From a virus: a stretch of DNA of 40,162 bases. Both the position numbers and the translations under genes were made by a program. Positions 22,858-40,075 of the stretch are shown one piece after another. Every line of letters begins with the position of its first letter. The stretch's first letter is position 1. Location of the stretch: positions 1-40,162 of the IMG/VR virus record IMGVR_UViG_3300013006_000062, one strand, 5' to 3'. The notes beneath the pieces are model-generated. The model made no database searches. It worked only from the letters and a program-made list of their open reading frames with translations, and had not been told where the DNA came from.

Positions 22858-24441
22858 ATGTCAACAGCAACCTTTACAATATCTAACATAGGTGACAATC
22901 CTGTTACCATAACTGGCATTACATTTAATACGCCTAGTGGTATTTCTCACGTTGCTGATTTGACAAATCTAGGTGGAAGTGCTGCATTTACAGGTTCAAT
23001 AGCCACCCTATCCTACAGTCTAAATTACCCACTCAGTCAAACTTTCACAGTTAATCATACTACAAATACCGGTGTAACAATCGCTTCAACATTGGCTAGT
23101 ACTATAGTTATTAATGGTTCGAGTGGTACTTCGGCCACTATCACTGTAACTGATGTTGTAACAACATCCACAGATTTAATAATTCCTACTACTGCTACAT
23201 TTTATTCTTATACAATCCCAGGTACCTATTATCTTGTACCACCTTATCGATATGCCACCGCAACAATAATTGGAGCTGGTGGAGGAGGTGGCGGTAATGA
23301 TGGTGGGGGAGATAATTGGGCAGGCGGCGGTGGAGGTTCTGGTGCCTATACGGTCAGCTATCTAGATTTCAACAACACAGGAAGTCTAGAGATTGTTGTC
23401 GGAGCAGGAGGATTACCCGCTAGTGTAACTTATAATGGTTATGCTTTTCCTGGAATAGAGGGTAAAACTAGAACAGGTACCAAGGCCGGAGGAACCGGCG
23501 GCACTTCTTTTGTTTTTTGGACTACTTCAGGTTATTATTATTCATCATTTGCTACTGGTGGCAGCGGCGGTAGTGGTAATACTAGCGATTACCGATACAC
23601 TGTTACTGGCGGATCGGGAGGATCTACCTCCGGTACCGGATTATCAAAAAATGGAGTCAAAGGCGAAGATGTAAATAGACCCACTTTTGAAAGAAATAGT
23701 TACAGAGCTGCATATGGTGGGGCTATTTCAGGAATTACTACAGGTACAGGCGGCAACAGCCATGATAGCAATTTTGGTACTAACTTAGATATTCATTTGC
23801 CTAATGGAGGAGGAGATGGTGCTGTTTTTCTTCTTTTTAGCAATACAAATCCCACAGGAACTACTACGGCAACTGTTGTTGCAAATTTTGGACAATCTGG
23901 ATCTAGCATAACCTCTCTCAATGGTAGATCAAAACCTTCATACACTATGGTGCAGATAACTTCTGCTGGCGGATTCAATTTTGATATTAGTTCACTATCG
24001 AGTCAAGCAGGTTCTGGAATTGATGTATATCCAGCTCCTGCTAGCAATCAAAGATGGGCTACAGAACCGTTAATTGGAGGTACCCCGGTTAGCAGTACCG
24101 GATATTATGTAAGGGCTAGAGTCGATCCATTAACCGCTTGGTTAGGTGATGCTGCATTTACAGGGCCAGGATTTGCTGCAGCACTTGATAACAGCTATTT
24201 TGCTACTTATGGTTATAGTTCGGTGCAAGGTAGTTGGGTAACTGTAACTACCGCAACTAATTATGTTAATGGGTTTGGAAAATCAGGATGGCGTTTATAT
24301 GGAATATATGATCCTTCGTCGGGGGATGATTCTTCTGCTCTATGTAATTTAACTATAGAAGTTTCGAATACGACGACCGGAGTTATATTAGCATCTGGCT
24401 CTTATCAATGCTACATGTACTCCAATAATTCTTACGCATAA
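22858..24441 (+). CDS. glycine-rich tail adhesin-like protein
   Basis: 527 residues, not assignable to a named T4 protein. Residues 1-100 look like an immunoglobulin-like beta domain (FTISNIGDNPVTITGITFN, resembling ASPM/SPD-2/Hydin-type repeats). Near residue 123 YSYTIPGTYYLVPPY leads into a glycine-rich domain (about 135-325) with Gly runs in IIGAGGGGGG, WAGGGGGSGAYT, GGTGGTSF, GGSGGSGN and GGGDGAVF. This pattern occurs in phage tail tip adhesins; in the S16-type gp38 adhesin such Gly motifs form a polyglycine-II core displaying receptor-binding loops. Residues 390-527 form another beta-rich domain (GYYVRARVDPL, then WRLYGIYDPSSGDDS). No Shine-Dalgarno precedes the ATG. It lies between the giant protein and the 841-residue protein, in the same frame as the latter. 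Receptor binding is inference. Confidence 0.55.
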   Translation: MSTATFTISNIGDNPVTITGITFNTPSGISHVADLTNLGGSAAFTGSIATLSYSLNYPLSQTFTVNHTTNTGVTIASTLASTIVINGSSGTSATITVTDVVTTSTDLIIPTTATFYSYTIPGTYYLVPPYRYATATIIGAGGGGGGNDGGGDNWAGGGGGSGAYTVSYLDFNNTGSLEIVVGAGGLPASVTYNGYAFPGIEGKTRTGTKAGGTGGTSFVFWTTSGYYYSSFATGGSGGSGNTSDYRYTVTGGSGGSTSGTGLSKNGVKGEDVNRPTFERNSYRAAYGGAISGITTGTGGNSHDSNFGTNLDIHLPNGGGDGAVFLLFSNTNPTGTTTATVVANFGQSGSSITSLNGRSKPSYTMVQITSAGGFNFDISSLSSQAGSGIDVYPAPASNQRWATEPLIGGTPVSSTGYYVRARVDPLTAWLGDAAFTGPGFAAALDNSYFATYGYSSVQGSWVTVTTATNYVNGFGKSGWRLYGIYDPSSGDDSSALCNLTIEVSNTTTGVILASGSYQCYMYSNNSYA

Positions 24442-24447
24442 TCTAAT

Positions 24448-26973
24448 ATGAACACTATTGACAATATATCTACAGCACAATCTGTAACATTAATTACAGA
24501 CAATCCTTTCACGGATGTCACTAAGGCTATAGTTATAGTCGATAACACTGTCATCACTACGGCTACTACCACCACAATCTATTATGAGCTAGTAGCAGAC
24601 TCAGTGGGCCGAGCGGTTATAAACATCAAAAACGTAACAAATAGTGCCACATGTTATACAGTTACAGCCACTATATACGGTGATCCTGCGGTCGAATTTT
24701 GGAAATATGATTTTGACGCCGCTGGTCTAGATACTGCTATATCGGGCGGAAATTGGAATAATTCTGGAAACTTGGTAGGAGCCTTGGGATATGCACCGGA
24801 AGATTTGATCATAGATGGCGATGCTTTTATGTCACCTAATGTCAGCTATGCTCCTGAAGAATTAGTTCCTGGTCATACCACAGACAGCCTTGGCATAAAT
24901 GTCTATACCAAAGACAGTCAATCATACGGTACAATAATAACTGGCGCATTTCCGGTAATTGCAGGTACTACAACATCTGCATATCTTTCGATCCTGCCAG
25001 AAGCTGATGCAGGCATCATGGTCTACTATAATAATACAATATTTCAAAGATCTACATCGTTGTATTCATTAACAGGTAATCAATTTTTTATCGAAGGAGA
25101 TAGATTAATCCTTCCTCCGCAGGCCGTTGGTGGACGTGGAGGATATACTATAGTAAGGATTGGCGGGACTGGGTTGATTGATAGCAATGTATTATCTGTA
25201 GAAAATACGTCTACTGGTGTTGTAGATAGTCTATTAAGTTATACAGATGTTAGGGCTGTATATGTATTAGTCAACGGACAAGAGGTTAGTCAAATAACTA
25301 CTACAACCGATTACGGTTATATGGTTCAACCTGATTTTACAGATAATAAAAGGGCCAGTGTTTGGTTGTACAATTTGCCTTATGACTCTAATACCATAGA
25401 AGCATGGTTCTTTGATACTCCTTACATAAAATTTAATAGAATGAATGAAGAGTATTTTTCCGTACCAGGAACCACATCTACTGTTATTTTGTCTCGTCCG
25501 CCCGGAGATTGGGGACCCTATAGCGACAAGGCCATAGTTGAAACTGGGTTTGGTGCAACTAGTACTGTACGTACAAGATTGACCCCTCCTCCGGTTAGTA
25601 ACTATACCGTTTCTGGGGGTGCTACTGTTTTTGCTATCGATAGCAAAAACAGTCATCCTGCAAATTATTATATTGCTGCTCAGATTATGGTTTATGCAGA
25701 CGGAGTTCGGCTACAGTCGGGATTTGATTTTATATTTGACTTGCCTAACAATAATATCATATTGACTACTGGCCAATTCCTTAATGGCACTTATATTTCT
25801 ATTGCTAGGTTAGAAGATTACGAGTATGTGATCAGTGGAAATATTTTACAGTTTGTAACACCTGTTTCTAATACCACAATTAAAGTCACTACATTTAACA
25901 ATCACGATGCTATGTTTATGCAAACTGAAAAATTTGCATATACCCCCATAAAACGATTCACACTTCTTAAGCCTGTGATTAACGAGAATTATGTATGGGT
26001 ATATCTCAACGGAATTCCTTTGATACATCGTTATGATTTTGAAATATTAGAAGATCAAAGAACAATTCAGTTAGACGAATGGTTTGTGGTAGAAGATCTT
26101 AATAGTACACTATTAATTACATCAATTATGATGCCAGAGTACACTGGTAGAATTTTAGGATTTAGGGTTTTCAATGATTTTTTTGATAGATCTCATTACA
26201 AAAGATTGTCAGCTTATCACACTACCTTTTTAATTGAACCTTTGAAATATACTGACAATAAAATAGTAGTCCATGACGGAGATGCTAGATTATCTCCATT
26301 TAATGCTCAAAGAAATATACCGGGGGTTGTACTCATTGACAGGGAAAGAATTGAATATAATGAAATGGATGGTAATGTTCTAACGTATCTAAGAAGAGGA
26401 ACCTTAGGAACAGGTCCTGCATTTTATATAGACGAAGCTAGTAAGGTTATAGATCAAGGAATTCAACAAACTATCCCGTATTCGGACACTGTGTATATTC
26501 AAAATTTTACATCAACAAACACCACTACCTATATTATAACAGCTACTAGTACCTCAACGATCGGTGACGGTATAACATTAACTAGCGGAATTGATGCCAT
26601 TGATCAAGTGTTGGTATACTACAGTGGAAGGCAACTACGTAAACATTCAGTAGACATGTACGAATCGGTAACCAGTACCAATTTGATCACTATGCCTAGT
26701 GAATTTACTATTTCCACTTCAAGTCAGGCATTGACGTTAAATATTAATGGCGGAATAGAATCTGGTGTTTTAATTTCTATTATACAGAAAAAAGGATACG
26801 TGTGGACAGGAACAGAGTCATTATTGATTAGTAATGTTCGTCAGGCACAGTTCTTAAGATCCGAGGGAGCAGAGCTACCTGATACATATTACTACGGTGG
26901 AGATCCTAGGCTTCTTGACAGTAATAACATTCCGCTCACTGATGATAGCGGAGTTTCTTTAACAAGGTACTAA
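24448..26973 (+). CDS. large structural protein, possible detached C-terminal part of the giant protein
   Basis: 841 residues. Residues 1-80 are a Thr/Val-rich beta domain. From about residue 88 (FWKYDFDAAGLDTAISGGNW) the sequence resembles the C-terminal part of giant T4-like structural proteins, including DLIIDGDAFMSPNVSYAPEE, the APEELVPG motif near residue 137 and INVYTK. Later blocks repeat the layout 'VYVLVNGQEV / VYADGVRLQSGFDF / VYLNGIPLIHRYDF / VYYSGRQLRKHSV', each a short strand with a Gly turn, suggesting four or so copies of one beta module. It starts in the same frame as the upstream adhesin, separated only by one TAA and two codons, and has no Shine-Dalgarno, so coupled translation is likely. 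A perfect 30-base palindrome falls at about residues 393-402. Structural role is likely; exact function unknown. Confidence 0.55.
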   Translation: MNTIDNISTAQSVTLITDNPFTDVTKAIVIVDNTVITTATTTTIYYELVADSVGRAVINIKNVTNSATCYTVTATIYGDPAVEFWKYDFDAAGLDTAISGGNWNNSGNLVGALGYAPEDLIIDGDAFMSPNVSYAPEELVPGHTTDSLGINVYTKDSQSYGTIITGAFPVIAGTTTSAYLSILPEADAGIMVYYNNTIFQRSTSLYSLTGNQFFIEGDRLILPPQAVGGRGGYTIVRIGGTGLIDSNVLSVENTSTGVVDSLLSYTDVRAVYVLVNGQEVSQITTTTDYGYMVQPDFTDNKRASVWLYNLPYDSNTIEAWFFDTPYIKFNRMNEEYFSVPGTTSTVILSRPPGDWGPYSDKAIVETGFGATSTVRTRLTPPPVSNYTVSGGATVFAIDSKNSHPANYYIAAQIMVYADGVRLQSGFDFIFDLPNNNIILTTGQFLNGTYISIARLEDYEYVISGNILQFVTPVSNTTIKVTTFNNHDAMFMQTEKFAYTPIKRFTLLKPVINENYVWVYLNGIPLIHRYDFEILEDQRTIQLDEWFVVEDLNSTLLITSIMMPEYTGRILGFRVFNDFFDRSHYKRLSAYHTTFLIEPLKYTDNKIVVHDGDARLSPFNAQRNIPGVVLIDRERIEYNEMDGNVLTYLRRGTLGTGPAFYIDEASKVIDQGIQQTIPYSDTVYIQNFTSTNTTTYIITATSTSTIGDGITLTSGIDAIDQVLVYYSGRQLRKHSVDMYESVTSTNLITMPSEFTISTSSQALTLNINGGIESGVLISIIQKKGYVWTGTESLLISNVRQAQFLRSEGAELPDTYYYGGDPRLLDSNNIPLTDDSGVSLTRY
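25624..25653. repeat. perfect 30-bp palindrome inside a structural gene
   Basis: ACTGTTTTTGCTATC is followed without a gap by its exact reverse complement, with ATCGAT at the centre. Flanking bases (T at 25623, C at 25654) break the symmetry. Both strands therefore read the same, and both can encode VFAIDSKNS. It has T-runs before and A-runs after the centre on either strand, the reverse of an intrinsic terminator. Confidence 0.95.
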
Positions 26974-26974
26974 T

Positions 26975-28312
26975 ATGACAAAAGTAACTGAATTACCATT
27001 TTTAGGAGAAGCTGGGTCAAATACCAGCTTCATAGTAGTTGATAATAAGTTAACCAGGAGAATAGGTTATAATAGTTTAAAAATTCAATTAGGTCGTGAT
27101 CTTTCCCTATTTTTTGATCAAGCTCTTTATACAACTAGTTCGGTGGTCTTTAACACCATAACAGCTACTAATAATATTGTATCACTAGGTACTATATTTG
27201 CTAACAGAAGAATACAGATTGGTGGACTAACTAACCAGTATGCGTTCGATCAAGGGGACCCTATGTTGATTCTTGGTAATCGTTTTACAGGACCTGTACC
27301 CACTATACTCCTGCAGGGGTATAAATTAAATTTTAACTCAAATTTCTCTTTTCTAAATAGGTCTCCTTATCCAATAATTAGAGGAGAGGTATCGGGCGGC
27401 ACATTTAATGCACCGACAGCAGTTTCGGCTGATGATGGTATTTTCTCATTGAGTATTGGAGGACACGATGGTATTACTTGGATCTCGACGCGAGGATTCG
27501 GTAACCCAGGAAGAATGTTTTTTGCAAGCCAAGAAAACTGGGGCGGCACCTTTGAGGATACCACTAATGCCGGCATACGATTTAGTTTTCAATTGCAACC
27601 ACCTAGTGTATATCTTTCAACTAGTAGTCGACAGACAATTATTCATCAATATTGGTCTGAATTTGGTAATGGGCAACTGCCAAAAAATAACATAGGATTC
27701 GGTGGAGGTGCTGACGGTGTAAATCCTAGTCTCCGTATCTCAAATGACACTTATTATACTGGTTACGGCTCGACTAATGTATTCTTAAATAATTCTACTT
27801 TCAGTTTGTATGGAGTTCCTCGAGAAGATTCTAACCCTGATAATTACACTTTACCAGATACATTGTCTATAGCATTTTATGCAAGCCAAGGCAGCGGAAG
27901 CTCCGCTAGAAGAAATCGAATTCAGAAAGGGAATACCTTGGGAAGAATTCAATTTTTTGGAGAAACAGGTGTACAATCTACCTCTACTGTAACTCAAATT
28001 AAAACCGCTGAACTTTTTGTTAAATCTTTGAACACTTTTACCTCTACTGCTACTGGTGGTGCTGTAGTAGTTTTAACTACATTAAACAGTGGAACCAATA
28101 TTGAAAGCCCGCGGCTCAGTTTATCAAATGTTGAACATATCTACTCCAGCGATATTCATTCATTTAAGACAGCCAATAGTTCAACAATTGTAACAATCAA
28201 TACTACTAGTTTTGTTGTTAAATCAGTTAGGGCTGTTCGAGGTACAGTTCCGGCAGGATTTAGCCCTATGTACTATAACACCTCAACGGGTGAAATTATA
28301 GTAGTATACTAG
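26975..28312 (+). CDS. tail fibre-like structural protein
   Basis: 445 residues. The N-terminal stretch TKVTELPFLGEAGSNTSFIV followed by VDNKLTRRIGYNSLKIQLG is a short attachment-like module seen at the start of many marine phage fibre and structural proteins. The rest is Ser/Thr/Gly/Asn-rich beta sequence with no catalytic motif, including several segments on repeated themes of LSISNDTYYTG-like strands. The end (VRGTVPAGFSPMYYNTSTGE) resembles a fibre tip strand. The ATG follows the previous stop after one base; AAGG lies about nine bases upstream. Position between the giant-protein block and the fibre paralogues supports a baseplate-rim or short-fibre role. No specific T4 homologue was recognised. 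Confidence 0.5.
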   Translation: MTKVTELPFLGEAGSNTSFIVVDNKLTRRIGYNSLKIQLGRDLSLFFDQALYTTSSVVFNTITATNNIVSLGTIFANRRIQIGGLTNQYAFDQGDPMLILGNRFTGPVPTILLQGYKLNFNSNFSFLNRSPYPIIRGEVSGGTFNAPTAVSADDGIFSLSIGGHDGITWISTRGFGNPGRMFFASQENWGGTFEDTTNAGIRFSFQLQPPSVYLSTSSRQTIIHQYWSEFGNGQLPKNNIGFGGGADGVNPSLRISNDTYYTGYGSTNVFLNNSTFSLYGVPREDSNPDNYTLPDTLSIAFYASQGSGSSARRNRIQKGNTLGRIQFFGETGVQSTSTVTQIKTAELFVKSLNTFTSTATGGAVVVLTTLNSGTNIESPRLSLSNVEHIYSSDIHSFKTANSSTIVTINTTSFVVKSVRAVRGTVPAGFSPMYYNTSTGEIIVVY

Positions 28313-28370: not shown

Positions 28371-28982
28371 ATGAATTCATTAAAAGATCGAGGCTTTATC
28401 AACATCGAAGGCCATATAAAAATTTATGATCCCATTTCTAAAGAAGTCTTTATTGACAAGAGAAATGCGATTCATTATGAAAATTTTAGTATTGCACTGG
28501 CCAGCAGTATGAGTAATCAAGATTCGGGAATGATTTCGGAAATGGTATTCGGCAGTGGTGGAACTAGGATTGATCCTACAGGTATTATCACTTATCTAAC
28601 TCCTAACACCGTCGGCAGTGAAGCCGGCCTATATAATTTGACTTACTTTAAGGTAGTCGATGCCAAAAGGCCCTCCAGCTTAGATCCTGCAAGAAATTAT
28701 ATGGAAGTTAGACACCGAGCAGGTACTTATTATAGCGACATTTTAGTCAGTTGTTTATTAGATTTTGGAGAACCTTACGATCAATTGGCATTTGATAATT
28801 CAACCAACAATGATGGAAGATATGTATTTGATGAGTTAGGATTAAAATCCTATGCCCCAGAAGGTCAAGGGCAAGGTATGTTATTGACTCATGTAGTATT
28901 TCATCCTGTCCAAAAATCTTTAAATAGAATGATACAGGTTGATTATACTGTGAGAGTGCAAAGTCTTAGCTCAGGAACCTAA
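28371..28982 (+). CDS. conserved T4-like structural protein
   Basis: 203 residues. The sequence GHIKIYDPISKEVFIDKRNA, then IHYENFSIALASSM, EMVFGSGGTRIDPTGIITYL and HVVFHPVQKSLNRMIQVDYT matches the style of a conserved small structural protein of T4-like marine phages, encoded just ahead of the fibre genes. It has no enzyme motif. The protein is compact with a single predicted beta-rich domain, no signal peptide or membrane segment. It has its own candidate late promoter 22 bases upstream, and the first tail-fibre paralogue starts two bases after its stop, so it may be a fibre adaptor at the baseplate rim. That role is inference from order; the structural category is more secure. Confidence 0.55.
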   Translation: MNSLKDRGFINIEGHIKIYDPISKEVFIDKRNAIHYENFSIALASSMSNQDSGMISEMVFGSGGTRIDPTGIITYLTPNTVGSEAGLYNLTYFKVVDAKRPSSLDPARNYMEVRHRAGTYYSDILVSCLLDFGEPYDQLAFDNSTNNDGRYVFDELGLKSYAPEGQGQGMLLTHVVFHPVQKSLNRMIQVDYTVRVQSLSSGT

Positions 28983-28984
28983 CT

Positions 28985-30856
28985 ATGGCGTTATCATATA
29001 CCTTAACCTTTTCGAATCCTTATAAAACAGATACGGTGGTTGTACCTAGTGCTAATGGCGGCTCTGGAAAGAATAACTATGATACCAGTTTAGAATTAGT
29101 CGGACCTGGTTACACCAATTATGGTCAATCTTATGCACAGAATTTTCTTAAACTTTTAGAAAACTCTGCTAGCCCTTACCCTCCGGAAAGCCCTATCGAA
29201 GGACAGTTGTGGTATGACACCAGTGATCCTACTAGGAAAGTGTTAAGGATCAACAATGGAACTGACATCAGTTCTAGATGGCCTACTGCTAGTGGTGTAT
29301 TTCAACAGCCTAATGATCCTGCTGTTCAATTTGGCCAGACATTAAAAGAAGGCGATATTTGGGTTGATACTGCTAACAGTCAATTAAAAATTAGATTTGG
29401 TCTTGGATGGACCTTGGTAGGACCTACTCTTGGATCAGGAACCGGCAAAACTGGGTCAGAGTTTGTAAATATTGAAAGCAATTCTGGTGCTACTTATCCT
29501 GTTATATTAAATTGGATAGGTGGTAAAGTGGTTGAAATCATTTCTTATAATGCATTTACCCCTAGATTAGTTATTGAGGGATTTTCTACCTTAGGAACAG
29601 GTACAAATTTAACTTCGAAAGTTTCCGCACAATATAATGGTACAGCAGAAAAAGCGGCCAGTTTAGTGCTTACTAATAGTACAACATTAAGGGCAACTGA
29701 TCTACTGCGAAACAATGTGACATCCCAAACACATACAGGAACACTAACAGTTAATTCTGTCAATGGGTTGTATGTTCAGAATTCTAATTATAATCAAACG
29801 GTACAAATTTATAGTGGTGTATCTGGAGGTTTTGTTACTTTTAGTAACGTAAGCAAGCCTTTTAATTTAGGGTACACTAATGGAACTTATATAAAGTTGG
29901 ATCCAGTCAACGGAGTGATGGGTATAAACACTTCAACAACCGCTCTTAGTCCAACTTTAGATGTTTATGGTAGTGGTAGATTTACAGGTGCTTTATCTTT
30001 GACATCAACAGGTCCTTCGGCATTATCTGTTAGTGGCGGAATATCAGTTACTAATAGTGCAACTATTGGGGGATCGATTGCTATATCGGGAACAACTACA
30101 GCAACTGGTAAATTAACTGTAGGATCTAATGTTAGTTCGGGCATAATTATTCAGCCGGGGCGACATGATACCTATGACATAGGCAGTACATCTACTAGAT
30201 TTAGAAGTATATATGCTGCAACAGTTGGATATTCTATTGGTGTAGGTGATGCTAGCACGGCAACAACTGTGTTCTACGGCCGGTTGGTTGGTACAGCAAC
30301 AAGATTAGAAACTAATAGAAATTTTTCAATAACTGGTCAAATATCTGCCGGTGCAGTTGCGTTTAATGGTACATCAAATGTTAATTTAATAACTACTCTT
30401 GCAAGAGGGGCGATCGCTGATCAATTAACGACATCAACTGCATTTCCAACACATACACTTTTGGTTCTTAACACATCAACATCGACTAGCAGTTTGGAGC
30501 AGATATCTAAGATTAATTTCTTAGCAGATGTTTATTCGTCGATAACTGTTATTAATTCATCATTAACTAATATTAATTCCTCATTAACTAGTATTGTTTC
30601 ATCACTGACTACTGTTTATAGTTATATGCCTACTGGGGCAATAATGGGTTTTGCAAACAATGTAACACCTACTGGATTTTTAATATGTGATGGTAGTTCG
30701 GTGTCTACATCCACGTATACTGCATTATACTCGCTTATTGGTTATACCTATGGTGGTAGTGGAGCAACTTTTAAGGTGCCAAATATGTCTACTTCTACAT
30801 ATGTTTCTACAGGAACAAGTACAGGGACATTTATAAAATATATCATAAAGACGTAA
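28985..30856 (+). CDS. tail fibre with C-terminal tail-collar domain (fibre paralogue 1)
   Basis: 623 residues. Residues 1-160 are the N-terminal module shared with the proteins at 30861 and 33423: a YGQSYAQNFLKLLENSA-type segment, PIEGQLWYDT, then EGDIWVDTANSQL and a final TLVGP. The middle is a Ser/Thr-rich shaft. Around residue 310 (NGVMGINTSTTALSPTLDVY) it has the pattern of fibres with beta-prism shafts. Residues about 523-543 are a heptad repeat (INSSLTN, INSSLTS, IVSSLTT), probably a trimeric coiled-coil neck. The C-terminus (from about residue 548: PTGAIMGFANNVTPTGFLIC, then DGSSVSTSTYTALYSLIG, FKVPNM) is a Phage Tail Collar domain as in T4 gp12-type fibres. It starts two bases after the upstream stop with no clear Shine-Dalgarno. 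Host binding is expected. Confidence 0.8.
   Translation: MALSYTLTFSNPYKTDTVVVPSANGGSGKNNYDTSLELVGPGYTNYGQSYAQNFLKLLENSASPYPPESPIEGQLWYDTSDPTRKVLRINNGTDISSRWPTASGVFQQPNDPAVQFGQTLKEGDIWVDTANSQLKIRFGLGWTLVGPTLGSGTGKTGSEFVNIESNSGATYPVILNWIGGKVVEIISYNAFTPRLVIEGFSTLGTGTNLTSKVSAQYNGTAEKAASLVLTNSTTLRATDLLRNNVTSQTHTGTLTVNSVNGLYVQNSNYNQTVQIYSGVSGGFVTFSNVSKPFNLGYTNGTYIKLDPVNGVMGINTSTTALSPTLDVYGSGRFTGALSLTSTGPSALSVSGGISVTNSATIGGSIAISGTTTATGKLTVGSNVSSGIIIQPGRHDTYDIGSTSTRFRSIYAATVGYSIGVGDASTATTVFYGRLVGTATRLETNRNFSITGQISAGAVAFNGTSNVNLITTLARGAIADQLTTSTAFPTHTLLVLNTSTSTSSLEQISKINFLADVYSSITVINSSLTNINSSLTSIVSSLTTVYSYMPTGAIMGFANNVTPTGFLICDGSSVSTSTYTALYSLIGYTYGGSGATFKVPNMSTSTYVSTGTSTGTFIKYIIKT
30551..30613 (+). 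repeat. 3 x 21-bp repeat encoding a heptad coiled-coil neck
   Basis: Three 21-base units (starts 30551, 30572, 30593) encode INSSLTN, INSSLTS and IVSSLTT. Units 1 and 2 differ mainly at synonymous sites. Ile and Leu fall at positions 1 and 5 of each heptad, as expected for a trimeric coiled coil just before the collar domain. Confidence 0.75.
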
Positions 30857-30860
30857 CATC

Positions 30861-32111
30861 ATGGCCTACACTATATACAATAATGATGGAACAATTTTAT
30901 TAAATTTACCAGATTCTGAGATTGACGATGTTACCACCAGTTTAACTTTAATTGGTAAAAATGTCAATAATTATGGAGAATATGTTAACAATAATTTGGT
31001 AAAGTTACTGACATCTTTTGCTAATTCTGGCGTAAACGAACCAGCAAACCCCCAAACAGGACAACTATTTTTTAATAAATCTACGGGCAGACTAACAGTA
31101 TATAACGGAATTACATTTCTTCCAACAAACGGTACTTGGCTATCACTGCCATTAACACCAGTCTCTGGAGATTTCTACTTTAATACTTCAGAAGAACAAT
31201 TGTTTATTTGGACAGGTACCAATTATAAACTAGTCGGTCCTGCATTGCCTAGATCGGCTGGAAAATTTGGAATCGAACCATCAACTTCTACAGTTACCGC
31301 TGATGTGACATATGCACCTCAACCTGGTGTAGGACTCATATATACCCGTAATAGTGTTGTGGGTATGATTTCTACCACCTCGTTTAAGATGAGTACCACT
31401 ACCTCGATTCTATATTTGAGCACTAGTACAGCGACTCAATTACTTGCAGGCCTTACATTATTTCAAAATTTAGATGTCAAAGGCAGTGTTAATGTTAATG
31501 GTGTTGTAACGGCTACTAATATGTTTATAGGTACATGGACAGTTAATACTGGCACTAACGGAGGCATATCTAGTCCGTTCTCTGGAATATTTACAATTAC
31601 TAATACCACTGCTGCATCATCTACAACTACAGGTGCTCTGAAGGTAGTTGGTGGTGCTGGAATTGGCGGTAGTTTGTATGTTGGTGGAAGTTTATATGTT
31701 AATGGCGTATTAACCAGCGGAAGTGGTGGTGTTAGTTCTAGAACATCTGTTTCGACTACAACTGTTACTCTAGTAGACGGAGCAAGTACAACTTCAACGG
31801 TTACAGCCGCTAAGGGTTATGCACTATACAGCGTTCAGGTTAGTGCAGGAGCTTGGGTAACTGTTTATTCTAGTTCTGTTGCACTATTGGCAGATAGCAG
31901 CAGATTGATTACCACAGATCCATCACCGGGCAGCGGCGTAATAGCAGAAGCAATATCAACTTTGACAACAACTACATATTTTACTCCTGCTGTAATTGGT
32001 TTTAATTCTGATGCTAGTCCAAGTTCAAAAGCCTATTTAAAAATTGCCAATAACAGTGGCGGTACAAGGCCTATTGACGTTACTTTAACATACCTACCGA
32101 TAGAGAATTAA
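30861..32111 (+). CDS. tail fibre-like protein (fibre paralogue 2)
   Basis: 416 residues. Residues 1-135 repeat the shared fibre module: LTLIGKNVNNYGEYVNNNLV, KLLTSFAN, TGQLFFNKSTGRLTVYNG, SGDFYFNTSEEQLFIWTG and YKLVGPALP. The centre includes VKGSVNVNGVVTATNMFIG and a Gly-rich turn region (VVGGAGIGGSLYVGG), a common shaft pattern in phage fibres. The end (residues about 295-416) is a beta domain ending in PIDVTLTYLPIEN. There is no collar domain, so the receptor tip must differ from paralogue 1. It starts four bases after the previous stop, and its own TAA is one base from the GTG start of the sedolisin gene. Anchoring to the same baseplate site as the other two paralogues is inferred from the shared N-terminus. 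Confidence 0.7.
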   Translation: MAYTIYNNDGTILLNLPDSEIDDVTTSLTLIGKNVNNYGEYVNNNLVKLLTSFANSGVNEPANPQTGQLFFNKSTGRLTVYNGITFLPTNGTWLSLPLTPVSGDFYFNTSEEQLFIWTGTNYKLVGPALPRSAGKFGIEPSTSTVTADVTYAPQPGVGLIYTRNSVVGMISTTSFKMSTTTSILYLSTSTATQLLAGLTLFQNLDVKGSVNVNGVVTATNMFIGTWTVNTGTNGGISSPFSGIFTITNTTAASSTTTGALKVVGGAGIGGSLYVGGSLYVNGVLTSGSGGVSSRTSVSTTTVTLVDGASTTSTVTAAKGYALYSVQVSAGAWVTVYSSSVALLADSSRLITTDPSPGSGVIAEAISTLTTTTYFTPAVIGFNSDASPSSKAYLKIANNSGGTRPIDVTLTYLPIEN

Positions 32112-32112
32112 T

Positions 32113-33354
32113 GTGGATGAAATAACCCCGGTAGAATTATTCTTACATGATCTAATAGATCCGGCAACAGGGGCAACACCGGCAGGAATTGTTACATCTG
32201 GATATTTGACTCCGCCTCAGATTGTAAAAGCATATGGTATTCCATCTAGTACAGGACTAGGGGTAAAAATTGGAATTATCGGTTTAGGAGGAGGATTTTA
32301 CCAATCGGACCTTAATAGTTCATTTACAGATCTTCGTACAGCCGGATTAATTCCGTCTACTACACCTGCACCTACAATTAAACAAGTATTACTAGATGGA
32401 GCGACCGGTGACTATAGTTCATCCAATGCCAGTACGGAAAATACTGTGGATATTTATTGTGTAGCCACAACAGTGCCCGCAGCTGATATTACTATGTATA
32501 TTGGTGTGAACAGTTTCGCCAGTTTTAAAAATCTTATTGATAGGGCTATTTCTGATGGGTGCCATATTATTACCATTAGTTGGGGCACCAACGAATCTAA
32601 CATTGGTACGTTCTTAGAATCATCTTTGGCCAATGCTGCTAATGCAAAAATCGCAGTATGTGTAGCTTCAGGTGATTGGGGGTCTAGCTTCTCTGGATTA
32701 AATTCATTGCAGATTTACTATCCAACATCGAGTCCGAATGTTATATCCGTTGGGGGGACAAAACTTACCTTAGGTGCCGGTGATAGTCGATCAGCCGAGT
32801 CAGATGATAATAGAAATCCAAATTTTCCGTACGGCTGGGGCGGTGGTGGTGGCCTAAGCACATTATTTTCATTGCCGTCTTGGCAATCTGGTCTTTACTA
32901 TACTCCAATCATCAATAGTAATATCGGCAGCCCAACAGCACTGACTGTGCGTGGTGTTCCAGATATTTCGGCTCCGATGAATGCATATGCTGTATATCTT
33001 AACGGTACTATAGGCGGAATAGGTGGTACAAGTCTTGCAGCTCCATTAATGGCAGGAATACTGGCAAGATATCAGCAATTAACCGGGATTCGAAGATCAA
33101 GTGCCGAATATAATGCAATATTTTATGCTAATCCTGGTGCTTTTTATGACATAACTGTGGGCACAAATAATACCCGAGCCGTAGACGGGTATGCTGGCAC
33201 CTCAGGATGGGATTGTGTAACTGGATTAGGACCACCAACCGGATCTACACTTTATAAGTCTTTAAGACCCAAAGTAACATTTCCTAAACATAACCATAGT
33301 TCTAGACCAGCAGCTGGAGCCGTTTATCCGAGACGAACTGTCGGTGCAAGATAA
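32113..33354 (+). CDS. sedolisin-family (S53) serine-carboxyl peptidase without propeptide
   Basis: 413 residues. The catalytic set of S53 is complete: Glu109 and Asp113 (STENTVDIY, spacing ExxxD), Asp188 of SGDWG (oxyanion), and Ser307 of GGTSLAAP. The family calcium-site end is present (FYDITVGTN with Asp346, then SGWDCVTGLGPPTG with Asp367), as is the GVPDISAP block. It begins almost directly at the mature catalytic domain (LTPPQIVKAYGIPS at about 32), without the roughly 170-200-residue inhibitory propeptide usual for sedolisins, and has no signal peptide. The last 25 residues are a basic tail. The start must be GTG 32113: in-frame TAG lies 12 bases upstream, and the overlapping ATG at 32111 reads only four codons to a stop. 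It lies between two fibre paralogues on the late strand, so it is probably a virion or assembly protease; substrate unknown. Confidence 0.88.
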   Translation: MDEITPVELFLHDLIDPATGATPAGIVTSGYLTPPQIVKAYGIPSSTGLGVKIGIIGLGGGFYQSDLNSSFTDLRTAGLIPSTTPAPTIKQVLLDGATGDYSSSNASTENTVDIYCVATTVPAADITMYIGVNSFASFKNLIDRAISDGCHIITISWGTNESNIGTFLESSLANAANAKIAVCVASGDWGSSFSGLNSLQIYYPTSSPNVISVGGTKLTLGAGDSRSAESDDNRNPNFPYGWGGGGGLSTLFSLPSWQSGLYYTPIINSNIGSPTALTVRGVPDISAPMNAYAVYLNGTIGGIGGTSLAAPLMAGILARYQQLTGIRRSSAEYNAIFYANPGAFYDITVGTNNTRAVDGYAGTSGWDCVTGLGPPTGSTLYKSLRPKVTFPKHNHSSRPAAGAVYPRRTVGAR

Positions 33355-33422: not shown

Positions 33423-34571
33423 ATGGCATATATTGTAAACAAAACCAATGGAGTGATTGTTGCTACTGTGCAAGATGCAGCATTAGATAACAGCACTAGT
33501 CTAACCTTTATTGGAAGAAATTATGCAGGGTATGGTGAAATTCAAAATGAAAATTTTGTTAAATTATTAGAAAATTTTGCCAATACCGCAGCCCCATCGA
33601 AACCTATAGAAGGACAGCTATGGTTTGATACCTTAAATCGTAATGCCAATGTCTATGATGGAATTACATGGAAGCCTTTGGCTATCAGCAATGTTACTAC
33701 AGATTCATCGCAGCCTAATAATCCTAAATTAGGTGATCTCTGGTACGATGCGGCGGCACAGCAATTATATGCTTATAATGGCTCATCATTTGCTCTAATT
33801 GGTCCTGCAAGTGGAGCAGACCTATTATCTAGTTGGAAAGGATCGTATGAATATAGTTTAGAGGCGGCTGATAATGTTCCTGTTTATAATGCCAAAGCAG
33901 TAGTAGGAACAGATGAAACTGTAATTGCTGTAGTCAGTGATCGAACCTATACAATTCAAACATCCCCTGGTAGCGAAAGCTATCCTATGGCAGGGCAGAC
34001 TCAAAAAATATATAAAGGCATAACCCTAGCAGGAGCCGATCCTATAACAGGATCTTCAATATCAGCAGGAAATTATTTTTGGGGAACAGCAGCAGAAGCA
34101 TTGTCGGCTCAGACTGCAGGAGGTTTTACGTTTTCTACAACAACAGCCACTCAAAAATTTAATGTTTTATTTGCAAGCACTGGTACCTCGGGATTATGTT
34201 ATGTAAACACTGGATTGCAGTATAATCCAGGAAATCAAACACTGTATGTTCCAAATTTAGTGGTAAGCGGAACATTTACCAGCGGCGGCGGCGGCGGTTC
34301 AGGTCTTGGAGTAGGACAAACTTGGTCAAACCCTACTCGATCAGGAGGAAGCACTTCATATCAAAATACTACTGGTGCTCCTATATTTGTTGTAATTACC
34401 GATGCCGGCCCGGGGGGTAATTTACAAGTAAGTACTGATAATGTCACGTGGATAGGTATCGGGGGTGCTGATTCAGGAACAGGTACTACTGCTTCTGTAG
34501 GTGGAATAGTTCCGAATAACAGTTATTATCGATATACCGGTACGCCTGCTGGTTGGGCGGAATTAAGATAA
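33423..34571 (+). CDS. tail fibre-like protein (fibre paralogue 3)
   Basis: 382 residues, preceded by AGGAT with good spacing. Residues 1-140 are the third copy of the shared fibre module: LTFIGRNYAGYGEIQNENFV, KLLENFAN, PIEGQLWFDTLNRNANVYDG, LGDLWYDAAAQQLYAYNGS and FALIGPASG. The rest is beta-rich, with VVGTDETVIAVVSDRTYTIQ in the middle and a six-Gly linker at about residue 288 that leads to a compact C-terminal domain (about 296-382) with FVVITDAGPGGNLQVSTDNV and WAELR at the end. It is the last gene of the + strand block and converges with thyA, with only seven bases between the two stops. Receptor binding or decoration of the fibre network is inferred. Confidence 0.7.
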   Translation: MAYIVNKTNGVIVATVQDAALDNSTSLTFIGRNYAGYGEIQNENFVKLLENFANTAAPSKPIEGQLWFDTLNRNANVYDGITWKPLAISNVTTDSSQPNNPKLGDLWYDAAAQQLYAYNGSSFALIGPASGADLLSSWKGSYEYSLEAADNVPVYNAKAVVGTDETVIAVVSDRTYTIQTSPGSESYPMAGQTQKIYKGITLAGADPITGSSISAGNYFWGTAAEALSAQTAGGFTFSTTTATQKFNVLFASTGTSGLCYVNTGLQYNPGNQTLYVPNLVVSGTFTSGGGGGSGLGVGQTWSNPTRSGGSTSYQNTTGAPIFVVITDAGPGGNLQVSTDNVTWIGIGGADSGTGTTASVGGIVPNNSYYRYTGTPAGWAELR

Positions 34572-36622: not shown

Positions 36623-37897
36623 TTATTTATAATAAGCGTATTGACCAAACGGAGGAACTGTGGTTTCGCTTCCGTGAATAACAAACAGAGTATCGCAATA
36701 GTCTTCGTCACCCCAACTGTCAAATGGTAATCCATCTGTAAACATGATAAACTTCTTAGGAGTAATTCCTTCGTTTTTCATAAACCTCCAGTTGGCCTCA
36801 AAGTCTGTTCCGCCACCACCTTTGCATTCGTACGCGGTAATGTCATCGGCATTGTCACCGGTAAATTGAGCATAACTATAGACCTCGGTGTCAAAGCACC
36901 ACAGATCTAATTTGAATTCTTTGTATTCTTCCATAATACCTTTGACTTCACTGACCATGTCCTTGCCCATTGCATCAGTAATACTGCCACTCATGTCGAT
37001 ACCTACAGCAACTTCGATGGTTTCCTCGTTCATCAATCCTGGAAGAATGGCTCCGCAGTGCTGACTTTTACGATTAGGACGATTGAAACTAAAGTTGCTT
37101 TTGAGGATGCTTTGGATATTCATACGTAGCATCTGCCGCCAATCCATTTTAGGCTCGGTAAAGTCACGAATCATACGAGCAATGCCTGCTGGCACTTTGC
37201 CGGCACCTGCGGCCTGTGCCGCGGCCACCATGGCCTCTTTGATTTCATCACGGATCTTTTTCTTTTCTTCGGCAGTCAGCTTTGGACGACCTTTGCCCTT
37301 GCCATTACCGTCAATCTCCTCCCCATCTTCTTCACCCTCGCCTCCTTCCTTATCACCATCATCGAGGTGATCGTCCAATAGCTCTCCTAATTCTTCAAGG
37401 CTGATTTTAGGAGCATCTTCGTAGAGCTTGTCATAAATTTGTTCATAACTCCAGCCACGATATTTGTCATCTTGGTAAATTTTGATAAAGCTAGGTGCAA
37501 TACCGATACGTTCATCTTTCAAGATTTGATTGGCGGCATAATCAGCGGCAATGTTGCTGAGAACAGGATTTCGAGATTCTCGTCGGCCCATATGGTCAAA
37601 CACATTGTGCAGGACCTCATGACCAAATCCAAACTCACATTCTTTAGGAGTTAGGGCATTGACAAAACTGTTGTTGTAGTAGAAGCGACGTCCATCGGTA
37701 GCCAGGGTCTGGCACCAATCACTGGCATCGACTAGCGTAAGACGAGTGGCTAAATTTCCAAAGAATGGATGCCGTAATAGGAGCCCAACACGGGCAGTGA
37801 TCAATTTGTCAAGGATCTTGTTCTTTTCTGCTTGGGTGAATTGTTTCTCGACCCACTTTTTCTTTTTGATCTTTTCGGCTTTCATTACTGACGACAT
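36623..37897 (-). CDS. VWA-domain protein with HExxH metallopeptidase-like N-domain (DUF2201-like)
   Basis: 424 residues. The start is fixed by AAGGAG seven bases before ATG. The N-terminal half has HEVLH (93-97) in ECEFGFGHEVLHNVFDHMGR, the zinc-binding HExxH of the putative metallopeptidase domain of DUF2201. Residues about 170-215 are an acidic linker (DDHLDDGDKEGGEGEEDGEE), then a Lys/Glu-rich helix. The C-terminal half is a VWA fold with the MIDAS DMSGS (Asp301, Ser303, Ser305) and GGGGTDF supplying the Thr. Such proteins pair with MoxR AAA+ ATPases, as here: the MoxR gene lies 1.1 kb upstream. Together they probably remodel or activate a client protein; the client is unknown. It has its own sigma70 promoter. 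Confidence 0.87.
   Translation of the reverse strand: MSSVMKAEKIKKKKWVEKQFTQAEKNKILDKLITARVGLLLRHPFFGNLATRLTLVDASDWCQTLATDGRRFYYNNSFVNALTPKECEFGFGHEVLHNVFDHMGRRESRNPVLSNIAADYAANQILKDERIGIAPSFIKIYQDDKYRGWSYEQIYDKLYEDAPKISLEELGELLDDHLDDGDKEGGEGEEDGEEIDGNGKGKGRPKLTAEEKKKIRDEIKEAMVAAAQAAGAGKVPAGIARMIRDFTEPKMDWRQMLRMNIQSILKSNFSFNRPNRKSQHCGAILPGLMNEETIEVAVGIDMSGSITDAMGKDMVSEVKGIMEEYKEFKLDLWCFDTEVYSYAQFTGDNADDITAYECKGGGGTDFEANWRFMKNEGITPKKFIMFTDGLPFDSWGDEDYCDTLFVIHGSETTVPPFGQYAYYK
36624..36631 (-). promoter_or_regulatory. candidate late promoter on - strand
   Basis: TATAAATA (- strand) overlaps the last codons of the VWA gene (Tyr-Lys-stop), 13 bases or so before the 94-residue ATG. It would give a short leader that still contains AGGTAG. 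The bases are also constrained by coding, so the match may be chance. Confidence 0.3.
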
Positions 37898-37930
37898 GTT
37901 GAACTCCTTACAATTTACAGGTTATACGTA

Positions 37931-37959
37931 ATTATATAGTCACTCTAGCAAAAAGTCAA
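37931..37959 (-). promoter_or_regulatory. sigma70 promoter for the VWA-thyA operon
   Basis: On the - strand, TTGACT at 37959-37954, 17 bases, then TATAAT at 37936-37931. The -35 box contains the TGA stop codon of the radical SAM gene. Transcription would start about 25-30 bases before the VWA gene ATG, which has an AAGGAG site. The near-consensus boxes suggest unmodified host polymerase. Confidence 0.8.
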
Positions 37960-38966
37960 CCGTCTATCCTTCTTTTTGGTTCTTGAATATCTATTCCGCA
38001 GTTACAGTTCTCTTTTTGGCAAAAAATACTATCTTTCATCCATGATATATTTTCTTCTAGACTCTTGAAAATTGGCCCACCTTCTCTGCAGACGCCTCTA
38101 AAAACCTCATCAATTTCGATAATCATTAGATCTTTTCCTATGTCGCACTCCCATCCTTTGAATTCATTTAAGCCGTGATCTATGAAATATTGAGCTCTTC
38201 CGATCTTTTCACTACCATTGTTGAATTCCAATATTAGTTCCGAATCATACCATGGTATATTTTTTACCGATTTAAATTTTTCTAGGGATTGTAATTTCCA
38301 TTTTTGACTTCTAATATAAAGATTTTTCTGAATAACAGCTAGTTGTGCATCTGTATAAGGTTGTAGTGATGTTGACCCTGTGATAACTTTTAATGTTGAT
38401 ATTGCTGTTGCTTCTGCTAATATCCTATAATGCCCTATTAGGGCCTTTTGAAAAAGACTTTCGTCTGATTGAGTAGTTACAAATATAGTAACCAGGGTAT
38501 TAGTATTCTGCACGATTTCATTAACTTCGATTACATGATCTGGAGTTTCTTCTTGTTCTGGATGATAACTTAAGAAGAGCCTATTCAATACATTTTTTTC
38601 AGCCAATTCTTTCCAAAATCGGATGGTTCTAGAACCATTACTAATCATACTGGTATAACCACCCTTATTTCGAATATAGGTTAATAAGTCAATTAGTTTT
38701 GGATATAAGGTAGGTTCCCCTCCAGAAAATTGAAACCAAACTTTCTTACCGTTTGATTGATCAATTAGATTATCGACAATTTTTATATATTTGCTAATAT
38801 CCAAAGGACGCTTACTACCGTCTTTAAATCCTGTCGGACAAAAACTGCAATTAAAATTACAGACGTTACTTAGTCTCCATTCTATAATTTTTGTAGTCCT
38901 GGGAACGGTTGCTCTTTTTAATTTAATAGGAATTATATTCATACCATATTTAAATAAATTAGCCAT
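37956..38966 (-). CDS. radical SAM enzyme with extra C-terminal cysteines
   Basis: 336 residues. CNFNCSFC (Cys36, Cys40, Cys43) is the CX3CX2C cluster motif that reduces S-adenosylmethionine, and FSGGEPTLYP at about 80-89 is the GGEP motif that binds the methionine amino group. Further cysteines near the C-terminus (GWEC, FRGVC, IFCQKENCNCG) suggest a SPASM- or twitch-type auxiliary iron-sulfur cluster, found in peptide- or protein-modifying members. The substrate cannot be told. The start is uncertain: ATG 38966 directly follows the T-tract of a terminator and lacks a good ribosome site; Met9 (38942) is the alternative. It sits between MoxR and VWA genes and seems more AT-rich than they are, so it may be a later insertion. 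Confidence 0.85.
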   Translation of the reverse strand: MANLFKYGMNIIPIKLKRATVPRTTKIIEWRLSNVCNFNCSFCPTGFKDGSKRPLDISKYIKIVDNLIDQSNGKKVWFQFSGGEPTLYPKLIDLLTYIRNKGGYTSMISNGSRTIRFWKELAEKNVLNRLFLSYHPEQEETPDHVIEVNEIVQNTNTLVTIFVTTQSDESLFQKALIGHYRILAEATAISTLKVITGSTSLQPYTDAQLAVIQKNLYIRSQKWKLQSLEKFKSVKNIPWYDSELILEFNNGSEKIGRAQYFIDHGLNEFKGWECDIGKDLMIIEIDEVFRGVCREGGPIFKSLEENISWMKDSIFCQKENCNCGIDIQEPKRRIDG

Positions 38967-38967
38967 T

Positions 38968-38988
38968 AAAAAAGGCTCTTTCGAGCCT
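38968..38988 (-). terminator. intrinsic terminator after the MoxR gene
   Basis: On the - strand AGGCTC-GAAA-GAGCCT, a six-base-pair stem with a GNRA tetraloop, is followed by a six-T run (the first T pairs with the stem). It lies four bases past the MoxR stop and ends one base before the radical SAM ATG at 38966. It should end the MoxR transcript. Confidence 0.85.
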
Positions 38989-38992
38989 AATT

Positions 38993-40075
38993 TTATCCCT
39001 CCATTGCTTGGATAATGTACTTGCCATACCGCTCGTGGAAGCGGTCAAAGTTCTTGAGTTTAGAAGCATCGAACGGCAACTGATATTGAGTAAGAGCCAC
39101 TTTGGCACCCATCACAACCAACTCAGTTGGGAAATTGTCCATCATAAAGCCAAAGAAGCAGTCTGCCATTGAATCCCAATTCTTAGACTTTTTGCGATCT
39201 GCTTCTTGAAGTTCGTAGCAAAGGCTAATAGTCAAAGAATACATTGCAGAGATTTCTTTGATGGCAAAGTCTTTGACCTTACCATGAAGAATTTCTGTTG
39301 GGTCAGGCATCTGCTTGGCTACCTTACGATGAGCCATAAACTTGACTGCCAGGCCTTCGCCAACTGCACCTGCAACCAAATCAGTTAGGGTGTTTTCGCT
39401 AATGTCATCGTCTTCAAGAAGTTCGCTGACAAAACTCCAAGAGCGAGGAGTAGCAAAACTACGGCTAAGGCTCTTTGGATCAAAATCGTAGAGGTCCTGT
39501 TTGGCAAATCCCACATAGCCTACCACCTGCTCATGGATGCGATTTTTCACGGCCCATTGTTGCCAATCTTCATAATCAACTCGCAGTTCCAAATGGATAA
39601 AGCGATTGGCCAACGGAGCAGGCATACGATAAGTAACGCCTTTATCACCATCACGGTTACCTGCTGCCACAATGCTGACACCTTTGGGCAATTGATAAGT
39701 ACCAACGCGGCGGTTCAGTACCAATTGAAATGCTGCCGCCTGGGTAGCTGGTGCCGCACTGTTCAGCTCGTCGAGAAACAGGATAGCGGTACTGTCTGGA
39801 TCAGTAGGCAATTCTGCAGGAGGTGCCCAAGTCATAGTCTTACTGTCGGAATTGTAGTAGGGAATACCTTTGATATCGGTGGGTTCCCAAAGGCTCAATC
39901 GAACGTCAATGACCTCGCGATCTTGTTCGTCTCCGATCTGTTTAACAGTGTCACTCTTACCAATGCCCGGAGGACCCCACAGGAATATAGGACGGTTTTT
40001 CTTCATGGCCTTACGAATAGCGGCTTTGGCTTCGTTGGGGCTAACGGTGCGATTTGCGGAAATTTTGTCACTCAT
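38993..40075 (-). CDS. MoxR-type AAA+ ATPase
   Basis: 360 residues. Walker A is GPPGIGKS (34-41), Walker B is ILFLDELN with Asp102-Glu103, sensor 1 is AAGN (137-140), and the MPAPLANRF block holds the arginine finger candidate. This is the MoxR/RavA/CbbQ branch of AAA+ ATPases, hexameric remodellers that act with VWA proteins; a VWA/HExxH protein lies downstream. Phage members of this pair occur in T4-like marine phages, but their client is unknown. The start ATG at 40075 has AAGAGAT about eight bases upstream, and a consensus sigma70 promoter lies 47 bases before it, so it should be expressed by unmodified host polymerase. A terminator follows the stop, so its transcript probably ends there and the rest of the - strand genes use other promoters. 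Confidence 0.92.
   Translation of the reverse strand: MSDKISANRTVSPNEAKAAIRKAMKKNRPIFLWGPPGIGKSDTVKQIGDEQDREVIDVRLSLWEPTDIKGIPYYNSDSKTMTWAPPAELPTDPDSTAILFLDELNSAAPATQAAAFQLVLNRRVGTYQLPKGVSIVAAGNRDGDKGVTYRMPAPLANRFIHLELRVDYEDWQQWAVKNRIHEQVVGYVGFAKQDLYDFDPKSLSRSFATPRSWSFVSELLEDDDISENTLTDLVAGAVGEGLAVKFMAHRKVAKQMPDPTEILHGKVKDFAIKEISAMYSLTISLCYELQEADRKKSKNWDSMADCFFGFMMDNFPTELVVMGAKVALTQYQLPFDASKLKNFDRFHERYGKYIIQAMEG

Follow-up and report, generated by a model that had tools for sequence, protein, structure and literature searches.

Sedolisins (peptidase family S53) are normally secreted enzymes that are made as zymogens with an N-terminal inhibitory domain. The DNA analysed here, a 40,162-nt stretch of a virus genome (the window), encodes a sedolisin-like protein amid tail-fibre genes, which raises the question of what such an enzyme would do for a phage. 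The window phage is a large freshwater phage, whose baseplate gp6-like protein is 33–35% identical to those of large T4-like phages (Phosso, Atu_ph07, CBB). Baseplate genes with tail matches in PHROG lie on the same strand as the protease gene. The fibre cassette is composed as follows:

28371..28982, + strand: 203-aa protein of phrog_11259, conserved (58–64%) beside the S53 pair in close relatives
28985..30856, + strand: fibre protein with a phage tail collar domain
30861..32111, + strand: tail-fibre protein directly upstream of the protease, with an N-terminal domain shared with its paralogue and a C-terminal fibCT module
32113..33354, + strand: S53 (kumamolisin-like) peptidase without propeptide, 413 aa, GTG start (assigned by phmmer, AF2 fold and residues)
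33423..34571, + strand: second fibre paralogue, sharing the N-terminal domain; no fibCT match

The products of 30861–32111 and 33423–34571 have their N-terminal domain in common (39% over ~128 aa), so that the protease gene does sit between two fibre paralogues, as had been read from the sequence alone.

Three proteins of 527, 841 and 445 aa are encoded in the region (window 22858–28312) that separates the fibre cassette from the giant baseplate gene. None of them had a PHROG match, and the 841- and 445-aa proteins had no Pfam match either; in relatives, the match of the 841-aa protein and that of the giant baseplate protein share one chain. On the minus strand (window 36623–40075), genes for a DUF2201/VWA metallopeptidase-like protein, a radical SAM protein and an ATPase (phrog_1297) stand in a row, of which the ATPase and the VWA protein may form a pair.

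The window protein is an S53 peptidase without a propeptide

A phmmer search against PDB chains matched the 32113–33354 protein to kumamolisin with an E value of 2.4e-39, and to sedolisin and tripeptidyl-peptidase 1 (TPP1) at about 1e-12. Pfam returned the Peptidase_S8 model only (E 7e-14), a clan-level match to a related model. The AF2 model of the protein (pLDDT 88) was compared with known structures using VIA-align, giving Z scores of 49.6 for pro-kumamolisin, 42 for sedolisin and ~27 for the best subtilases. The active-site residues are encoded at the following positions:

32437..32439, + strand: catalytic Glu109 codon
32449..32451, + strand: catalytic Asp113 codon
32674..32676, + strand: oxyanion Asp188 codon
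33031..33033, + strand: catalytic Ser307 codon (GGTSLAAP)

These four residues stand at S53 spacing, align with the kumamolisin Glu/Asp/Asp/Ser and do not vary in any of the 37 phage sequences aligned. The Asp-His-Ser triad of S8 enzymes was not found in the window protein. Structure and residues thus decide for S53 over S8, despite the Pfam result, and the window protein belongs to the sedolisins. The full catalytic set that the sequence-only reading had reported is therefore borne out by profile and structure, and the predicted active site does not hold its residues apart. Its calcium-site motifs also hold at the sequence level, where the largely conserved region FYDITVG...GYAGTSGWD lines up with FHDITEG...GWD in kumamolisin.

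Kumamolisin and kumamolisin-As (MEROPS S53) share with the window protein the catalytic-domain fold (Z 46–50), 34–35% identity and the Glu/Asp/Asp/Ser set. Whereas kumamolisin is a secreted zymogen, the window protein has no propeptide, carries a phage-specific C-terminal tail and is encoded in a tail-fibre cassette. Its alignment with kumamolisin begins only at residue 32 (phmmer), Pfam found no match to Pro-kuma_activ, and the protein lacks a hydrophobic signal-like start. The short N-terminus is common to about 20 relatives, which makes the start codon credible.

Scanning viral contigs with the window protein and its alignment yielded about 40 viral loci with S53 relatives. The window S53 is 36–66% identical to these and about 35–40% identical to its nearest cellular matches. 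None of the named phages in INPHARED had an S53 match; one bacterial genome did (Sinomonas, with propeptide). Contamination, which homologues confined to bacteria would have suggested, was rejected as the source of the gene, given the phage tail cassette, the viral relatives and the greater distance of the cellular matches. Two of the relatives have unusual architectures. At locus L036 (7989–9255) the S53 falls into two ORFs, whereas it is whole in the closely similar L030, indicating a broken gene or an assembly error. At locus L001 (7971–12212), a 1413-aa protein that contains tandem-95-type repeats begins with the S53; it adjoins a collagen-like 918-aa protein.

A conserved fibre end precedes the protease gene

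Comparison of the fibres upstream of the proteases showed that only their last ~120 residues are conserved, while the remainder is variable. We refer to this module as fibCT. In the window, it abuts the protease gene:

31740..32108, + strand: fibCT, a conserved 123-aa C-terminal module and proposed docking domain; predicted beta-sandwich (pLDDT 97)
32109..32115, + strand: junction TAA-T-GTG, with the protease start one base past the fibre stop

FibCT is 66–71% identical in close relatives and 42–58% identical in most phages whose other neighbouring genes differ from those of the window. Its predicted fold had no clear match in the PDB (best Z 7.2; Foldseek E 1.6e-3), and we therefore draw no function from it. 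The top BFVD matches of the fold were cyanophage proteins, several of them tail fibres.

The protease starts one base beyond the fibre stop at most S53 loci, and a 1-nt gap separates 92 of the 119 fibCT–protease pairs in all sets. Because the fibre stop lies so close to the protease start, the two proteins are probably made together, in proportionate amounts. The tight junction also suggested a programmed frameshift joining fibre and protease, which was rejected because the protease frame, in the relatives that were read, is closed by stops only a few codons further upstream. No natural fibCT–protease fusion was found; the single internal fibCT (L138, 825 aa) is in a chain without a protease domain.

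S53 and S8 proteases exchange behind the same fibre end

For a census blind to the protease, viral contigs were scanned with fibCT alone. At least 594 stretches encode a fibCT end; 80 loci were fetched, giving 79 usable pairs. A serine protease lies directly behind the fibCT gene in 73 of these (51 S8 subtilases and 22 S53 enzymes, the latter 13 with and 9 without a pro-kumamolisin propeptide), and the other six have something else or a cut-off gene in this slot. The order fibre–protease is thus conserved and resembles the T4-type gp37/gp38 arrangement, in which the small gene that comes right after the fibre gene encodes the fibre-tip adhesin gp38.

Among 78 aligned slot proteins, Pfam matched Pro-kuma_activ in 11 and Peptidase_S8, a model that also matches S53 enzymes, in 67. 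The absence of a propeptide, noted from the sequence, consequently stands for the window protein but does not extend to a general rule, since sister phage S53s in the same slot retain Pro-kuma_activ. The idea that fibCT stands in for the missing propeptide was rejected because propeptide-bearing S53s and S8s use the same slot. Phage S53s without a propeptide group in a single clade (100/100) and those with one fall outside it, on a tree weakly rooted on one bacterial sequence.

FibCT occurs in 49 records of named phages, nearly all of them Synechococcus phages. S8 proteases follow it, mostly after a 1-nt gap, in S-H9-1, ACG-2014h, S-CAM1, S-CREM1, S-RSM4, S-WAM2, S-CAM4, ACG-2014e, ACG-2014i and S-H38. 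Those of S-H9-1, S-WAM2, S-CREM1, S-RSM4 and S-H38 are subtilisin-like and share the slot, mostly the 1-nt gap, and the tail type with the window S53; they differ from it in their S8 catalytic domain and in an extra N-terminal region that, by eye, resembles an I9-type propeptide. The slot S8 subtilases also have extra C-terminal domains. In S-MbCM7/ACG-2014h (L047 5338–8262), the slot protease continues, within a single 974-aa chain, into regions that weakly match esterase/hydrolase and copper-binding-like Pfam models.

Seven INPHARED fibCT loci have no downstream protease, and six of these have a large non-protease protein. In S-H9-1 (L046 438–4218, 4479–7344), fibCT occurs in two genes; behind one lies an S8 protease, behind the other a large non-protease protein ending in AFCARTT. 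S-SCSM1, Sf-CH1b, S-BM3 and ACG-2014i have similar non-protease partners, so that the slot has a third class of occupant. On a fibCT tree built on 123 columns, the partner class (S53, S8 or other) switches at least seven times, including several exchanges between S53 and S8. Enzymes have thus been exchanged on one fibre end.

The slot proteases share a C-terminal tail

The window protease ends in a tail of a type that it shares with the S8 proteases of the slot:

33277..33351, + strand: protease C-terminal tail TFPKHNHSSRPAAGAVYPRRTVGAR; low-confidence, probably disordered, in the model

Slot S53s end in FPKxNYGxRPxxGxxYPRxTTGxR and slot S8s end alike (for example S-CREM1, SPKVTYRQRPTTGHIFPRIRNRR); the ~24-residue form found in both families reads FPK.NYG.RP..G..YPR. 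When a profile of the S53 tails only was run against 932 ORFs, the S8 tails were the best non-S53 matches, with E values down to 3e-9, and one match fell outside the proteases. Of 84 slot proteases, 56 have the tail motif within their last 60 residues and 68 have it anywhere in the chain; among 346 other ORFs the corresponding counts are 0 and 3. All of these counts ignore relatedness. Several slot S8s have a further domain C-terminal to the motif, and 15 of 49 lack the strict pattern anywhere. A tblastn search for the tail peptide in named phages returned no match, the query being too short to be informative. Residues 391–413 of the window protease, which form the tail, have low confidence in the AF2 model, which fits a free docking peptide.

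S53s without a fibCT neighbour (L001, L032–34, L038, L039 and the bacterial L045) also lack the tail, suggesting that protease tail and fibre end go together. In L001, a 1,000-aa repeat region continues the chain; in L032–34 and L038, VKT..W repeats take the place of the tail. The fibres upstream of the S53 in L032–34, L038, L039 and L043 end in GxxGDxW, and this end and its S53 are possibly a second docking pair.

Indirect evidence for virion association of slot proteins

The records of S-SCSM1 label both the slot protein and the fibCT fibre as 'virion protein', and virion proteins of this phage were identified by mass spectrometry (PMC9602691). In S-TIM54, S-SCSM1 and S-CAM1, annotations class S8 relatives as virion structural proteins or tail fibre proteins. 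For S-CREM1, a study detected 14 proteins of the virion, and its text does not name the peptidase of this phage among them (PMC9964418). We found no virion proteomics of S53-bearing phages. In the open-access library searched, which does not extend to subscription journals, we found no paper on phage S53 enzymes and nothing on fibre-borne proteases; the cyanophage slot S8s are annotated in their records, and no paper found in the same library describes them as a fibre-borne system.

A virion-borne or assembly protease, which either processes fibre or baseplate proteins or trims proteins of the host surface, had been proposed from the sequence. The fixed pairing with fibCT across unrelated phages and the tail shared with slot S8s support the virion association well, while the processing of fibre or baseplate proteins fits less well. 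Action on the host surface fits better, because the slot takes S8s with extra C-terminal domains and sometimes non-proteases, and the conserved partner is the fibre end.

Discussion

We consider it probable that the window S53 is a virion-borne enzyme of the fibre tip, docked by its tail on fibCT and cutting host surface proteins at adsorption. The 30861–32111 fibre would be anchored, probably, by the N-terminal domain it shares with the 33423–34571 paralogue, and would present fibCT as a docking domain at its distal end. The protease, probably co-translated with the fibre in proportion, would be made in the cytoplasm and dock on fibCT through its ~24-residue tail. The fibre would then carry it to the host surface at adsorption, where it would cut surface proteins such as a receptor, S-layer or masking proteins. 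We infer the docking, the presence in the window phage virion and the activity, as well as a surface-protein substrate, which is itself a guess from position. The slot is modular, accepting S8 subtilases or S53s with or without propeptide, all with the same kind of tail.

Alternatively, the enzyme could be a maturation protease: during assembly it would trim the adjacent fibre or the giant baseplate proteins, and it would not have to remain with the particle. Its gene lies among fibre and baseplate genes and is translated beside the fibre, and tail and fibCT end could be substrate and recognition elements. We think this unlikely, since fibCT is conserved whether its neighbour is an S53, an S8 or a non-protease, and two peptidase families would need to process the same site. 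Moreover, we identified no conserved motif for cleavage in the fibre, and the extra C-terminal domains of slot S8s are as expected of surface-facing proteins. That the subtilase-like fold is mainly an adhesin, with catalysis secondary or lost, is suggested by the gp38-like place downstream of a fibre gene and by the non-protease occupants of the slot; the invariance of the tetrad in 37 of 37 sequences, which an adhesin does not need, makes this reading likewise unlikely.

Phage proteins acting inside the cell are common, and the window protease, with neither a signal peptide-like start nor a propeptide, could act there in lysis, takeover or counter-defence, its pairing with fibCT reflecting only transport as a gene pair. 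This we regard as very improbable, because junction, fibCT and tail stay associated in unrelated phages, and where fibCT is missing, the tail has disappeared or been exchanged for something else. Each of these three alternatives accounts less well than an enzyme at the fibre tip for the exchange of two peptidase families with a common tail.

The proposed fibre-tip enzyme resembles gp38 in arrangement, with a small gene right behind the fibre gene and a product proposed at the fibre's distal end; unlike gp38, it is an enzyme with an intact active site, and we claim no sequence relation. Tailspike depolymerases, which degrade polysaccharides and mostly belong to the fibre polypeptide itself, are likewise virion-borne enzymes that meet the host surface at adsorption. 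The window protease, in contrast, is a separate peptidase. The surface-stripping enzymes known from phages act mainly on sugars, and the fibCT–protease pairing points to an undescribed kind of surface-attacking phage protease. There is perhaps an even chance that docking between fibCT and the YPR tail is general, and that many tailed phages of aquatic habitats thereby bear exchangeable serine proteases (S8, and S53 whether or not it has a propeptide) at the tips of their fibres, where these would destroy receptors or clear the surface. A set of this kind would also provide a clean system for tests, in which two distinct peptidase families alternate on a single docking domain and the short tail can be assayed for recruitment. 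If the proposal is true, many unannotated genes of marine and freshwater phages would become interpretable, and host surface proteins would join the enzymatic targets of phages, attacked by a protease counterpart of the polysaccharide depolymerases.
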